From an uncultured Oscillospiraceae bacterium (GTDB lineage Bacteria > Bacillota > Clostridia > Oscillospirales > Oscillospiraceae): a stretch of DNA of 55,161 nucleotides. Shown one piece after another: positions 16,770 through 46,754 of this stretch. The stretch is taken from NCBI GenBank assembly GCA_944385405.1, contig CALWXB010000010.1, forward strand, positions 1-55,161. The letters run 5' to 3'. A model generated the notes under the pieces. The model saw nothing but the letters and a program-made list of their open reading frames with translations, was not told the DNA's origin and made no database searches. The translations under genes were made by a program, and so were the position numbers. How positions within the stretch are numbered: the first letter of the stretch is position 1; each line of letters begins with the position of its first letter.

Positions 16770-17587
16770 GCCTCTTCCGCTGCCCCGTCTGCGGCGCGCC
16801 CCTGACCCGGGAGGCCGCCGCCTACCGCTGCCCCGCCCGGCACAGCTTCGACATCGCCCGGGAGGGCTACACCTACCTGCTGCCCCCCAACCAGAAGCAC
16901 TCCGCCGCCCCCGGCGACGACAAGGGCATGGCCGCCGCCCGGCGGGAATTCCTCTCCAAAGGGTATTACGCCCCGCTTTTGAATACCCTTTGTAGTCGAG
17001 TTTTGGCGCTTACCGGCGAAGCCCCGGCGATCCTGGACGCCGGCTGCGGGGAGGGCTACTACACCAGCGGCATCTGTCAGGCGCTGCTGGCGGCGGGCCG
17101 GTCCCCCCGCATGGCGGGCACCGACATCTCCAAGTCCATCCTCCGCTACGCCGCCCGGCGGGAAAAGGCGGCGGAGTTCGCCGTGGCCTCGTCCTATCAC
17201 CTGCCCCTGGCGGACGGCTGCCTGGACCTGCTGCTGGACTGCTTTTCCCCCCTGGCGCTGGAGGAATTCCGGCGGGTGCTGCGGCCCGGCGGCCACTTCC
17301 TCTACGTGGTGCCCGGACCGGAGCACCTGTGGCAGCTCAAGGAGGTGCTCTACGACCATCCCTACCCCAACGAGGAGCAGGAGACGCCCTACGAGGGCTT
17401 TGCCTACCGGGAGATCGCGGCGGTGGAGGACACCGTTGCCCTGACCTCCCAGGCCGACATCCACGCCCTGTTCCAGATGACCCCCTACTACTGGAAAACG
17501 CCCCGGGCCGGGGCGGAACGGCTGGCGGCGCTGGAGACGCTCTCGTGCCGCATCTCCTTCCGCGTCCACATCTTCCAAAAGCTGTAA
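16766..17587 (+). CDS. rlmA: 23S rRNA (guanine-N1)-methyltransferase, RlmA family
   Basis: This SAM-dependent methyltransferase belongs to the RlmA family (G745 in E. coli, G748 in Gram-positives, the latter giving tylosin resistance in some species). The N-terminus has a zinc site of the family type, FRCPVCGAPL then YRCPARHSF (Cys6, Cys9, Cys22, His26). The SAM motif is ILDAGCGEGYYTSG. Length is 273 residues, near E. coli RlmA (269). The ATG overlaps the MATE stop. An efflux pump coupled to an rRNA methylase is a plausible antibiotic-tolerance pair, but housekeeping use is equally possible. Confidence 0.88.
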   Translation: MSLFRCPVCGAPLTREAAAYRCPARHSFDIAREGYTYLLPPNQKHSAAPGDDKGMAAARREFLSKGYYAPLLNTLCSRVLALTGEAPAILDAGCGEGYYTSGICQALLAAGRSPRMAGTDISKSILRYAARREKAAEFAVASSYHLPLADGCLDLLLDCFSPLALEEFRRVLRPGGHFLYVVPGPEHLWQLKEVLYDHPYPNEEQETPYEGFAYREIAAVEDTVALTSQADIHALFQMTPYYWKTPRAGAERLAALETLSCRISFRVHIFQKL

Positions 17588-17590
17588 AGA

Positions 17591-17629
17591 AAAAAGCCTT
17601 GTCCCCACGGAATGGGGACAAGGCTTTTT
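17591..17629. terminator. Bidirectional terminator
   Basis: A 17-bp perfect stem from AAAAAGCC onward with a CGGAA loop lies between convergent rlmA and the MBL-fold gene. Confidence 0.9.
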
Positions 17630-17635
17630 CGTTCC

Positions 17636-18244
17636 TCATGCAAAGCGCGGCACCAGCACGCCGGCGGTGTCCGCCGCCGCGGTAAAGCCGCTGCCCTTCA
17701 AACGGTGCACCGCCTCCGCCGGCCAAAGGGCCAGAAACGGCTCCACGCCGCCTACGTTGGGCAGTCCATAGGGGGCGTGGCGGTAATGCATGGGCACCGC
17801 GAACCGGGGGGCAAGGGCATCGCACGCCGCCTTGGCCCCGGCGGCGTCCACGGTGTACACGCCGCCCACCGGCACCAGTACGCCGTCCACCGCGCCGATG
17901 TCCGCCAGCTGCTCCGGGGAGAGCGGATGGCCCAGATCCCCCAGGTGGGCCACGGTGGCGCCCCCGGCGGTGAGCACGTGGATGGTGTTGGGCCCCCGCA
18001 GGGCGCCGCCGGCGTCGTCGTGGAAGCACGGCACCGTGCGGACGGTAAAGGGACTCTCCCGCCCGGGCAGCAGGCGCACCCGGTCCGCGGCGGCGTGGTC
18101 GAAATGCCCGTGGCTGCACAGCACCGCATGGGCCTCCGCATCCAGCTCCGGATAGCCCTCCACCCCGGTGTAGGGGTCCAGCACGATCCGGTATCCGTCC
18201 TCCTCCAGCATGAAACAGGCGTGGCCCAGCCAAGTGATCTTCAT
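17636..18244 (-). CDS. MBL-fold metal-dependent hydrolase (UPF0173-like)
   Basis: This 202-residue metallo-beta-lactamase-fold protein starts MKITWLGHACFMLE, typical of the UPF0173/UlaG-like group. Metal ligands are in CSHGHFDH (HxHxDH type), a later His in HLGDLGH and one in MHYRHAP. AGGAGG is 7 nt from the chosen ATG and only 1 nt from the next ATG upstream, which decides the start. The substrate is unknown. Confidence 0.88.
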   Translation of the reverse strand: MKITWLGHACFMLEEDGYRIVLDPYTGVEGYPELDAEAHAVLCSHGHFDHAAADRVRLLPGRESPFTVRTVPCFHDDAGGALRGPNTIHVLTAGGATVAHLGDLGHPLSPEQLADIGAVDGVLVPVGGVYTVDAAGAKAACDALAPRFAVPMHYRHAPYGLPNVGGVEPFLALWPAEAVHRLKGSGFTAAADTAGVLVPRFA

Positions 18245-20464: not shown

Positions 20465-20839
20465 TCACAGCTCGGTCTTCCACAGGCCGTGGAGGTTGCA
20501 GTAGGCGTACACCGCCGCTGCCTTCTCGCCCTCCGCCAGGACGAAGGCCGCCTCCGGCGCCTGGCCGGGCTTGAGATGGCGCACCTGGAAGCCGTTTTCC
20601 GTCTCCAGCAGCACCCAGGCGATGTGGTGCTCCTCCGTCATGGGATGGGCCACGGAACCCACCGCCGCACGGATCACGCTGCCCTCCGCCGTCACGGCGG
20701 GGACGTGCTTTTCCACGGCGGCGTCCTTCACGCCGGCCTCCAGCAGCTGCATGGGCTTGCCGCAGCACACCATGGGCACGCCGCTGTCCGTCAGCTTCAC
20801 CGCAATGTTTCCGCAGGTCTCGCAAATATAGATCTTCAT
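20465..20839 (-). CDS. dfx: Desulfoferrodoxin (superoxide reductase)
   Basis: This is a two-iron superoxide reductase of 124 residues that reduces superoxide to peroxide in the cytoplasm of anaerobes, taking electrons from rubredoxin. The N-terminal desulforedoxin domain has ICETCGN (CxxC) and MVCCGKPM (CC), which bind the Fe(Cys)4 centre I. The catalytic centre II ligands are EKHVP (His), HPMTEEHHIAW (His residues) and YCNLHGLW (Cys and His). It is transcribed alone. Upstream lies an inverted repeat and -10 layout identical to that of the rubredoxin gene at 44195-44353. Confidence 0.95.
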   Translation of the reverse strand: MKIYICETCGNIAVKLTDSGVPMVCCGKPMQLLEAGVKDAAVEKHVPAVTAEGSVIRAAVGSVAHPMTEEHHIAWVLLETENGFQVRHLKPGQAPEAAFVLAEGEKAAAVYAYCNLHGLWKTEL

Positions 20840-20908: not shown

Positions 20909-20937
20909 ATTCTATCCCCGGCGGCGGGAAAAATCAG
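20909..20937 (-). promoter_or_regulatory. dfx promoter with weak -35
   Basis: On the minus strand the -10 box TAGAAT (20909-20914) has only CTGATT at the -35 position (20932-20937, 17-bp spacer). A poor -35 next to an operator suggests activator dependence. Confidence 0.45.
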
Positions 20938-20950
20938 TTGCATCCGCAAC
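20937..20950 (-). promoter_or_regulatory. Inverted-repeat operator upstream of dfx
   Basis: GTTGC-ATCC-GCAAC is a perfect 5-4-5 inverted repeat. It begins 23 nt from the upper edge of the -10 box, so its centre is at about -41.5. The rubredoxin promoter has a matching site (11 of 14 bases) at the same distance. Confidence 0.6.
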
Positions 20951-26065: not shown

Positions 26066-26485
26066 ATGTCATACAGTACGAAACAGCAGCAGGCGGTGCT
26101 GCAGTGCCTGGCGGAGCGCGGCGGGGAGTGCCTCACCGCCGCCGCGCTGACGGCGCAGCTGCGGCAAAGCGGCAGCCCGGTGGGGCTGGCCACGGTGTAC
26201 CGCCAGCTGGAGAAGCTGGAGCAGGCGGGGCTGGTGCACAAGGTCCACACGGAGGAGGGGGCGTTCTACCAGTACTGCCCCCTGCAATCCGGTGAGCACC
26301 GGGACTGCTTTTTGCTGCGGTGCGAGCGCTGCGGCCGGATGGTCCATCTGGACTGCGGCCATCTGCGGGGCCTGTGCGACCATCTGGAGTCGGAGCACCG
26401 CTTCCGCATCGACCCCCGGCGCACGGTGCTCACCGGCGTGTGCAGCGCCTGCGCGGAACAGGAGGAACGCCATGAAGCCACGTGA
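26066..26485 (+). CDS. zur: Fur-family metalloregulator, probably zinc-responsive
   Basis: This 139-residue regulator has the Fur winged helix (PVGLATVYRQLEKLEQAGLVHKV, recognition helix) and the structural zinc site from CERCG and CSAC. Sensor-region residues include HLDCGHLRGLCDHL. It opens an operon with ABC transporter genes of the zinc-uptake type, which points to zinc (Zur) rather than iron or peroxide sensing; this is inference from context. GGGAGG lies upstream of the chosen ATG; the ATG five codons earlier precedes that site. Confidence 0.85.
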   Translation: MSYSTKQQQAVLQCLAERGGECLTAAALTAQLRQSGSPVGLATVYRQLEKLEQAGLVHKVHTEEGAFYQYCPLQSGEHRDCFLLRCERCGRMVHLDCGHLRGLCDHLESEHRFRIDPRRTVLTGVCSACAEQEERHEAT

Positions 26486-44194: not shown

Positions 44195-44353
44195 TCACTG
44201 GGCCTCGAACTCTTCCTTGCCGGCGCCGCACAGGGGGCACACCCAATCCGCGGGGAGATCCTCCCACTTGGTACCGGGGGCCACGCCGTTGTCGGGATCG
44301 CCGGCGGCCTCGTCGTAAATATAGCCGCAGGGCTTGCACTCGTACTGCTTCAT
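44195..44353 (-). CDS. Rubredoxin
   Basis: This 52-residue protein binds one iron through four cysteines, in [11 protein letters not shown] (CxxCG) and [13 protein letters not shown] (CxxCG), the standard rubredoxin pattern. It shuttles electrons, for example to superoxide reductase (desulfoferrodoxin, encoded at 20465-20839). AGGAGGA lies about 9 nt before the ATG. It has its own promoter and terminator. The promoter layout and operator mirror those of the desulfoferrodoxin gene. Confidence 0.96.
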
Positions 44354-44418: not shown

Positions 44419-44447
44419 AGTATACCCCGATCTCCCCGGGGTGTCTG
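44419..44447 (-). promoter_or_regulatory. Rubredoxin promoter with weak -35
   Basis: On the minus strand the -10 box TATACT (44419-44424) has CAGACA at the -35 position (44442-44447, 17-bp spacer). The poor -35 abuts an inverted repeat. Confidence 0.5.
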
Positions 44448-44460
44448 TTGTATCTACAAC
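44447..44460 (-). promoter_or_regulatory. Inverted-repeat operator upstream of rubredoxin
   Basis: GTTGTA-TC-TACAAC is a perfect 14-bp inverted repeat. It starts 23 nt from the upper edge of the -10 box, exactly as in the dfx promoter, so its centre is at about -41.5. It touches the stop codon of the upstream fusion gene. Confidence 0.6.
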
Positions 44461-46754
44461 TATTTCCCCATTTTTTTGCGAAGTTTTGCCTTCACCTCCG
44501 GAGACAGCAGCCGGGACGCCGCCCGCACCGGCAGGGACGGCAGCGTGAAAAAGCGCCGGCGCACCTGCTGGAAGGGCTCCACCGCGTAGGCGGCGAAGAA
44601 GGCGGAGCGGTCCGGAGAGGGGGAGATGGGCGAGGCCAGCCGGGGATTGCCCGCGATGGCCCGCTCCGGCGGGAACGCCTTGCGGGCAAGGGGCAGCTGG
44701 TCGAAGATATGGCTGGCGTGGGGGGTGTTCACCATCAGCAGGCTGATGCCCCGGGTCTGCTGCTCCGCCAGCTCGTCGGGCTTCAATCCCCAGAAGTCCC
44801 CCAGGGTGAAGTCCCCGGGGCGGGTCATGGAGGTGTAGGGACAGCGGTGGCAGCTGGGCCGCAGGAACAGCGCCCGGCCGAAGGCCCGGCCGTACTCCGT
44901 GGCCATCAGCGGCGCGGAGTCCACCGTGCCGTCGTCATAAACCGTTGTAAAGTGGCTGTCCTTCCAGCCGGTGACCTTGTTGCGGAAGCGCACCGCCTGC
45001 ACCCCTTTGCGGCGCCGGGTCTCGATGGAGCGGACCATGTCCTCCCACACGCCGGGGGAGGGCACGCCGTGGCACACCAGGTCGCAGGTGATGAGATTGT
45101 CCGGCCGGCCGCCCAGGAAGTGGTACAGGCCGTCCACCTGGCAGGGGGTGCCGGAAAACAGCACCGGCCGGGTCTTCAGGGCGGTGCGGATCTCCCGGAA
45201 GGTGTCCCCCAGGTCGCTTTGCACATATTTGGCGCCCCGGAGCCGCCACAGGTCCTCCCGGCGGAAGCAGGCCACATGGCGCAGGTGCTGCCGCCCGTCC
45301 AGGGCCGCGCCGTACACCACGCCGCCGCCCTCCAGCACGTACTCGGCGATGGCCGTGAACGCGCCGCCGGAGGTGGAGTCCTTCCGGATGTCCTCGTCCC
45401 GGTTCCAGGCGGCATACACGGCGGGCAGCGGCCCCGTCAGCCGGCCGTGGAGCACCGGACACACGGAGGTGCACCGGCCGCACCGGACGCACAGCTCCTC
45501 CCGCACCGCCGGGTAGGAAAAGCCCTCCCGGTCCCGCTCCATGACGATGGCGTCCCTGGGGCAGATGCTCATGCAGGCGCTGCAGCCGGTGCAGCGGATG
45601 CGGGAGGCCAGCATGGGCTTCTCCCCCTCCTCCGCCTCCGGCGCATAGGGACGGTCTTCCAGGGCACAGCGGAGATACGCCTGCGAGCTGCGGCGGGCTT
45701 TTGTCAAGGCCACGTCCACCGCCGCCCAGTCCACGCCGTCGTCCAGCCCCGCCGTGTCGCCCTTGCCCACGATCCGGTCCGTCAGGCCCAGGCCGGCCAG
45801 GAGGCTGAAGGTGCGGGAGCTCTCCGGCTCCGTCAGCTCCTTGGGGGCCACGGCGGTGAAGAAGGGCTTTTGGAACTGCACGGAGAACACCGTGCCGTGG
45901 AAGGAGTTGGTGCACACCGCGGCGGCGCCCCGGAACCAGCCCAGAAACTCCGCCGGACCCGCGTCCAGCACGCACCGGGCCGTGGGCACCACCTTGCGGC
46001 GGATGCCGCAAAGCTGCACCACCGGCAGCCCCGTCCGCTCCGACAGCGCCCGGACATAGGGGGCCACCGCGCCGGGGGCGCTGATGCAGTAGCAGAGGAT
46101 GTAGCCCCCCGCCGGGGCGTTTTCCGGTGCCCGGGCCATGGCGCTCCATTGCTCCGCCGTCAAAAGCAGCGTGGGGTCCAGCACCACCGGGGCCTCCCGT
46201 CCCGCCGCGGCCCGGACGATGGCCTGGCCCTGGCGCTCCCGGACGGAGAGGTGGGAAAACTGCTCCAGATACCCCCGCAGCTCCGCCTCCATCCGCTCCG
46301 GGATGTGGGGCGTGCCGAAGGAGGGGGCGTAGGCGATCTTCCGCCGGGGGGAGAAGGCCCCGAAAAACACCGGGTCGAACCGCCCGTCGGGGAAGATGCC
46401 CGGGTTCCAGATCTGGTCGCTGCCCGAGAGGATCACGTCGTAGGGCAGCTCCGCCGACTTCAGCTCCTCCAGGCTCTCGAACCGGTGGCCGCTGATGCGC
46501 AGGTGCTCCCGGGCAAAGGCCTCAAAGCGCTGGTAGCGGCGGCTGAGGGCCTGATAGTGCAGCGCCGTGTGGACGTCCGCCGCGGCGCTGCCCACGCCGG
46601 TGGGCCGGCGGAAGAGGGCGTTGTTCTGGTTGACGTAGTAGTCGATGATCTCGCACTCCGCGCCCAGCTGCTCCACCGCCCGCTCCGTGGCGGCGGCCTG
46701 GAGCAGGGCCCCGTAGTGATGGATATGGTAAAAGGTCACAAGTCCCGCTTTCAA
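44460..46754 (-). CDS. Fusion protein: polysaccharide pyruvyl transferase, 2x[4Fe-4S] ferredoxin and FrhB/FdhB-like domains
   Basis: This is a 764-residue three-part protein. The N-terminal part (1 to about 340) is of the polysaccharide pyruvyl transferase family ([43 protein letters not shown]). Next is a bacterial ferredoxin region with two clusters, [12 protein letters not shown] (about 387) and [12 protein letters not shown] (about 425). The rest (about 445-740) is a coenzyme F420 hydrogenase beta-subunit-like domain ([40 protein letters not shown]). Such domains usually occur as separate neighbouring proteins in surface polysaccharide loci. No sugar biosynthesis genes lie beside it. It is 18 nt downstream of the dCMP deaminase gene. 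Confidence 0.85.

Follow-up and report, generated by a model that had tools for sequence, protein, structure and literature searches.

PerR is a Fur-family repressor, and FNR carries a four-Cys ligand set, recognizes the half site TTGAT and binds a class II site centered at −41.5. Clostridium is known to control superoxide reductase, rubredoxin and reverse rubrerythrin through repression by PerR: according to the available excerpts of the respective reports, the genes that this protein represses in C. acetobutylicum are those of reverse rubrerythrins and rubredoxin together with dfx, nror and fprA (PMC3828012), and a perR mutation in C. difficile derepresses the rbr operon, which holds sor (PMC11980386); superoxide reductases usually take their electrons from rubredoxin (PMC11980386). 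Another described system is HcpR, which governs frdX-hcp on NO in C. difficile (PMC12915319, available part) and for which heme-based NO sensing has been reported in P. gingivalis (PMC12750200, available part). In the accessible portion of the work of Rodionov and others (PMC1274295), R180 is associated with a G in third position of the motif and the common HcpR2 sites are GTAACnnnnGTTAC, with HcpR2 proteins that carry Ser181, in C. difficile and C. thermocellum, having a different motif. A search of the open-access literature, over titles and the starts of abstracts, brought up no report from Firmicutes in which a CRP/FNR protein regulates dfx, rubredoxin or reverse rubrerythrin.

The window analyzed here, a stretch of 55,161 nucleotides (contig CALWXB010000010.1, assembly GCA_944385405.1) from an uncultured Oscillospiraceae bacterium, comes from a gut-type anaerobe in which a promoter palindrome occupies the same position at a gene for superoxide removal and at the gene of the likely electron donor. 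The first, dfx, encodes a desulfoferrodoxin (superoxide reductase) of 124 aa (20465–20839, minus strand) whose best NCBIfam match is dfx_rbo (E-value 4.5e-37; 127 bits, below the curated cut-off of 146.9); the second encodes a rubredoxin of 52 aa (44195–44353, minus strand) whose best match is RubredRD (E-value 9.2e-28; 96 bits, above the cut-off of 90), and both matches agree with the gene identities initially given. Palindrome GTTGCATCCGCAAC lies at 20937–20950 and palindrome GTTGTATCTACAAC at 44447–44460; both are perfect over 14 bases, 11 of which are identical between them, and both contain GTTG-N6-CAAC. On the coding (minus) strand, they read GTTGCGGATGCAAC (class GTTGC-N4-GCAAC) at dfx and GTTGTAGATACAAC (class GTTGT-N4-ACAAC) at rubredoxin, followed after exactly 22 nt by a −10 box, TAGAAT at 20909–20914 and TATACT at 44419–44424 (both minus strand), respectively; with this box at −12 to −7, the palindromes are centered at −41.5 in both promoters. 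Repeats, identity, shared core, gap and center had all been described in the initial annotation and were read again in the sequence. Upstream of rubredoxin, a 764-aa gene (44460–46754, minus strand) ends in a stop codon that overlaps the rubredoxin operator by one base, the last of the codon and the first of the operator, and a similar coding end is found upstream of rubredoxin in several relatives.

The reading favored here, which we regard as likely on sequence grounds, is that both palindromes are CRP/FNR activator operators of a redox-stress regulon, the dfx site acting in class II fashion through a candidate regulator termed E. By frequency, these palindromes do not stand out: the window contains two copies of GTTG-N6-CAAC where 0.45 would be expected, 5 of 100 shuffles reach at least two, and the whole genome has seven against 11 for a reversed control. 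Counts so near chance at both scales, which favor an account of chance palindromes beside chance −10 boxes, mean that the letters alone prove nothing. What sets the sites apart is position, not motif frequency: four of the seven genomic sites are intergenic, at dfx, rubredoxin, hcp and frdX (an FrdX-like ferredoxin gene), and each of the four is followed after 22 nt by a −10-like box (TAGAAT, TATACT, TATGCT and GATACT, respectively), the other three being inside ORFs that by eye resemble cas1, a phage tail gene and ccdA.

Conservation of this arrangement was assessed in 61 genomes of the same genus, several of them incomplete, with sites scored out of 10 against GTTGCNNNNGCAAC and a threshold of at least 8. 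At dfx, 13 of 15 close orthologs (at least 57% identity) have a site at or above the threshold, with the best-scoring −10 box at 22 nt in eight of the 13, 21 nt in one and 25 or 27 nt in four; at three loci with their best box at 25–27 nt (L049, L058 and L062), TANNNT is present at 22 nt too. Locus L052, below the threshold and left out of the 13, reads GTTGCATATATCAC by eye, and no site was seen at the close ortholog L061. Among more distant dfx genes of the genus (50–55% identity; eight loci, of which L067 is cut by a contig end), the site occurs in none of the seven loci counted, and six further dfx-like matches (48–55%) were left out of the dfx counts. Among the best 80 named dfx loci of 574 relatives, a perfect GTTGN6CAAC is found in three (L108, L129 and L143), each with a −10 box 21–22 nt past the site. 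Present in close orthologs and rare in distant or named ones, the arrangement thus belongs to this lineage and not to dfx generally.

Rubredoxin promoters were compared at the best 30 loci, 25 from genomes with E and five from genomes without it. A site scoring at least 8 is present in 17 of the 25 (19 when L190 and L206 are added by eye) and no site in six (L196–L200 and L202); of the 17 loci, 12 have their best −10 box 22 nt past the site, one has it at 21 nt, one at 23 nt and three at 25 nt. On the side of the genomes without E, the site of L215 scores 8 and stands without a −10 box near 22 nt, a degenerate site lies 22 nt before TACACT at L210 (genome G051, 60% complete), and nothing site-like was seen at the remaining three of the five loci; the four clear loci of this set have a different upstream sequence and may therefore represent another locus. 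Where relatives have a site at dfx or rubredoxin, the repeat is hence mostly kept together with a spacing of 21–23 nt, and this conservation at −41.5 supports well the class II CRP/FNR interpretation first put forward for the pair.

The cleanest case of site conservation is a third promoter, that of reverse rubrerythrin. In 49 genomes (50 loci, of which L358 was cut and dropped, with matches in G026, G036 and G058 left out), a site scoring at least 8 is present in 40 of 40 genomes with E, always 22–23 nt before TATACT or TATAAT, against four of nine genomes without E (Fisher tests, which ignore the relatedness of the genomes: p = 6.6e-5 at score 8, 3.7e-4 at score 9 and 0.13 for a perfect 10). 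The site is kept with no E in G013 (95% complete) and in G012, G035 and G039 (71–82% complete); a search of the genome of the window, itself 88% complete, turned up no close reverse rubrerythrin. A spacing that stays nearly fixed in dozens of genomes, together with co-occurrence with E, leaves coincidental palindromes beside coincidental −10 boxes extremely improbable, and this explanation was rejected on the promoter comparisons at dfx, rubredoxin and reverse rubrerythrin.

A scan of the 61 genomes for the site plus a −10 box gave 156 matches, against 76 for the reversed control, and loci without a sensible downstream gene are probably due to chance. Genes 3′ of the site in two sets of fetched loci include reverse rubrerythrin, dfx, rubredoxin, hcp, frdX, moaA, a modA-like gene (named by eye) and others; in single relatives, further such genes encode a thioredoxin-reductase-like flavoprotein, a SufC-like ABC ATPase, a FeoB-associated-like small protein and FrdX, the SufC, thioredoxin reductase and FeoB-associated family matches being below their curated cut-offs. 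One genome has, at locus L264, a gene for the gamma subunit of a 2-oxoacid:acceptor oxidoreductase (position 2026, minus strand) with GTTGCACAAGCAAC plus a −10 box in front of it. An activator dedicated to dfx and rubredoxin, as originally proposed, does not survive these data: because the same site precedes other genes (reverse rubrerythrin in every one of the 40 genomes with E, others in single relatives), a single dedicated activator is rejected. The pattern indicates that the palindrome is a real predicted operator of CRP/FNR-family regulators, which seem to run a wider set of oxygen-defense genes.

The best candidate for the regulator of the GTTGC-class sites is E, a 220-aa protein encoded outside the window on contig C29 of the same genome (likely 16980–17639, minus strand), just upstream of nfnA and nfnB. 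Its assignment to the CRP/FNR family follows from matches to PF00027 (E-value 4.1e-9) and PF13545 (E-value 6.3e-8), both over the cut-off, and it is present at 65–100% identity in 48 of the 61 same-genus genomes. The leader of E has GTGAT-N4-GCAAC in 26 of 30 genus loci and a close form in the other four, right before the ribosome-binding site and, in 21 of the 30, 6–7 nt past the −10 box of E; in the genome of the window, this site (C29:17654–17667) lies just after that box, a position that points to autorepression. In a named Oscillibacter genome, the leader of the E ortholog (L319, 68%) is without the site, and among E-like proteins outside the genus the site is found in five leaders (L289, L290, L291, L292 and L295) and in none of three others (L288, L293 and L294). 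The recognition helix, ATDRSAMMRE, is identical in 30 of 30 sequences and contains R180 and S181 (CRP numbering by our own alignment); R180, taken with the R180–G pairing described in the accessible part of PMC1274295, supports E on the G of the motif. Since C27, C119, C123 and H126 are invariant in 40 E and E-like sequences, we infer at these residues an iron-sulfur, metal or heme center that would act as a redox or gas sensor. In a sequence search for the nearest solved relative, 9day was found for E alone and Lmo0753 (7t8o) for the E profile; 9day is mentioned once in the available text of the P. gingivalis HcpR structure paper (PMC12750200).

The same genome encodes several CRP/FNR proteins, one of which, A (C6:47717–48379), is divergent from hcp. 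The intergenic region between them contains a GTTGT-N4-ACAAC site located 15 nt before the start codon of A and 22 nt before the −10 box of hcp, so that A, like E, has a matching site in front of its own gene; a CRP/FNR gene of this kind is what the initial annotation had suggested looking for. With its hcp linkage and with sites at hcp and at a frdX-like gene on contig C39, A is probably HcpR (hcp was named by NCBIfam in a relative, L019, and hcp and frdX of this genome by sequence likeness). Among PDB chains, A matches 9day with an E-value of 1.7e-8, behind Lmo0753 at 2e-13; its recognition helix, VDRSALSAEL, has R180 and S181 as in E (CRP numbering by our own alignment). It is present in 13 of the 61 genus genomes, and A-like proteins elsewhere in the family have GTTGN6CAAC in 13 of 15 leaders (L296, L299–L301 and L305–L315). 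E and A are 30% identical and each forms one clade with 99% SH-aLRT support in a quick tree built without any described clostridial HcpR sequence. The C-x3-C-x2-H element is kept in 12 full-length A and three C-group sequences and lost in 12 of 13 B-group sequences.

Across the genus, the letters of the operator sort with these paralogs. In tests on 150 of the 156 matches, which cover 61 genomes of which several are incomplete, ignore relatedness and rely on groups A, C and D assigned from identity bands and gene neighbors, GTTGC..GCAAC sites are associated with E (39 of the 48 genomes that encode it, five of the 13 that do not; p = 0.0046), GTTGT..ACAAC sites with A or D (15 of the 22 genomes encoding either, four of the 39 others; p = 5e-6) and GTTGA..TCAAC sites with group C (three of five genomes against two of 56; p = 0.0026). 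GTTGT sites lean to genomes with E too (18 of 48 against one of 13, p = 0.047), and no association with A was seen for GTTGC sites (p = 0.32). At the rubredoxin promoter, the letters are of the HcpR class in the genome of the window and likewise in G032 and G044; most other relatives in which the site is present show GTTGC, the promoter-proximal half being weaker. In the near relative G017, the A gene contains an internal stop codon and the rubredoxin site is GTTGC. At four loci (L275, L276, L277 and L278), frdX-like genes are divergent from C-group CRP/FNR genes and carry GTTGAAATTTCAAC or GTTGGAAATCCAAC sites, which appear from their letters to be further classes of the same operator. At three others (L033, L039 and L046), moaA has GTTGT-type sites beside D-group CRP/FNR genes, hinting that another CRP/FNR paralog may control molybdenum cofactor genes.

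These distributions bear on whether HcpR, that is A, could alone bind all four intergenic sites of this genome, with dfx and rubredoxin as additional nitrosative-stress targets. Such an arrangement would fit the GTTG-N6-CAAC core and 22-nt spacing common to the four sites, the site that A shares with hcp in front of its own start codon, and the description of HcpR as a regulator of hcp and frdX in the available parts of PMC1274295 and PMC12915319; it is nonetheless improbable, as sites at dfx, rubredoxin and reverse rubrerythrin are found in many genomes that do not encode A, the GTTGC sites follow E instead, and the hcpR mutant of C. difficile is not sensitive to reactive oxygen species (PMC12915319, available part). 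HcpR as sole regulator was rejected, the GTTGC sites showing no tracking of it. Somewhat less unlikely, but still doubtful, is that E and A both bind both operators and thereby pass on two signals, E favoring GTTGC and A favoring GTTGT. R180 and S181 in similar helices, mixed sites (C in one half, T in the other) at thioredoxin-reductase-like genes, and the lean of GTTGT sites to genomes with E are compatible with such overlap, as is frdX, whose site is GTTGC in G006 and G052, where E is the sole close CRP/FNR protein found, and GTTGT in the genome of the window; against it, each letter class still goes with its own regulator when genomes are compared.

In the preferred reading, that of a redox-stress regulon with dfx under E, the GTTGC-N4-GCAAC site of dfx would most likely be bound by an E dimer centered at −41.5, which, placed over a poor −35 box, would activate dfx as a class II regulator; activation is here deduced from position, and a CRP/FNR protein at −41.5 could instead repress. 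From C29:17654–17667, E would repress its own promoter, as the location of that site suggests. The GTTGT-N4-ACAAC site of rubredoxin would fit the HcpR-like A, with its sites at hcp and frdX. With an E-class site at dfx and an HcpR-class site at rubredoxin, the two genes have the same type of operator and may in this genome answer to two paralogous proteins.

Compared with HcpR and HcpR2, the proteins described here belong to the same CRP/FNR family and share the 5-4-5 palindromic operator and R180; A is moreover divergent from hcp, with sites at hcp and frdX, and the Ser181 found here is that of the HcpR2 proteins of C. difficile and C. thermocellum (PMC1274295, accessible part). The statement in the initial annotation that no described regulator has this site holds loosely, the deviating motif of Ser181 HcpR2 having already been noted there (PMC1274295). 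The operator differs, being GTTGY-N4-RCAAC here and GTAACnnnnGTTAC for common HcpR2 (PMC1274295, accessible part). E is unlike HcpR2 in several respects: it adjoins nfnAB and not hcp, forms a clade of its own apart from A, has as operator GTTGC-N4-GCAAC and variants instead of GTAACnnnnGTTAC, and has oxygen-defense genes as its best-supported targets. With FNR, E shares family and class II geometry, but its half site is GTTGC and not TTGAT, and in place of an FNR Cys cluster it has one invariant N-terminal Cys (C27), plus C119, C123 and H126.

There is also an overlap in genes with the PerR regulon of C. acetobutylicum, which likewise includes reverse rubrerythrins, dfx and rubredoxin (PMC3828012, available part); given that PerR represses these genes there, the arrangement seen here looks like a rewired oxygen-defense regulon. 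FUR-family genes are still present in this genome, two of them, at L316 (contig C41) and L317 (contig C18), beside genes that by eye are rubrerythrin-like and rubredoxin-rubrerythrin-like, and with such neighbors PerR-type control of other peroxidases may persist. Within the window, a FUR-family gene (26075–26410, plus strand), whose NCBIfam matches to Fur, PerR and Zur are all below cut-off, lies beside an ABC transporter pair resembling znuCB by eye and is thus possibly Zur.

In summary, another large group of anaerobes now has a candidate for the regulator, a precisely defined operator, a list of targets and a pattern of co-occurrence, and paralogous CRP/FNR proteins here seem to divide one type of operator among themselves by a single base per half site. 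A broader proposal, made tentatively and with somewhat more doubt than belief, is that E represents a new CRP/FNR subfamily with C27 and C-x3-C-x2-H as a metal or iron-sulfur switch, which, in a large gut genus, would have taken the place of PerR and act as master activator of the genes for reverse rubrerythrin, rubredoxin and superoxide reductase, with HcpR and other paralogs dividing the operators by one base in each half site. Despite this overlap in target genes, the difference from the PerR regulon would be one of mechanism, PerR acting by repression and the system described here relying on a predicted CRP/FNR protein at an activator-type site.
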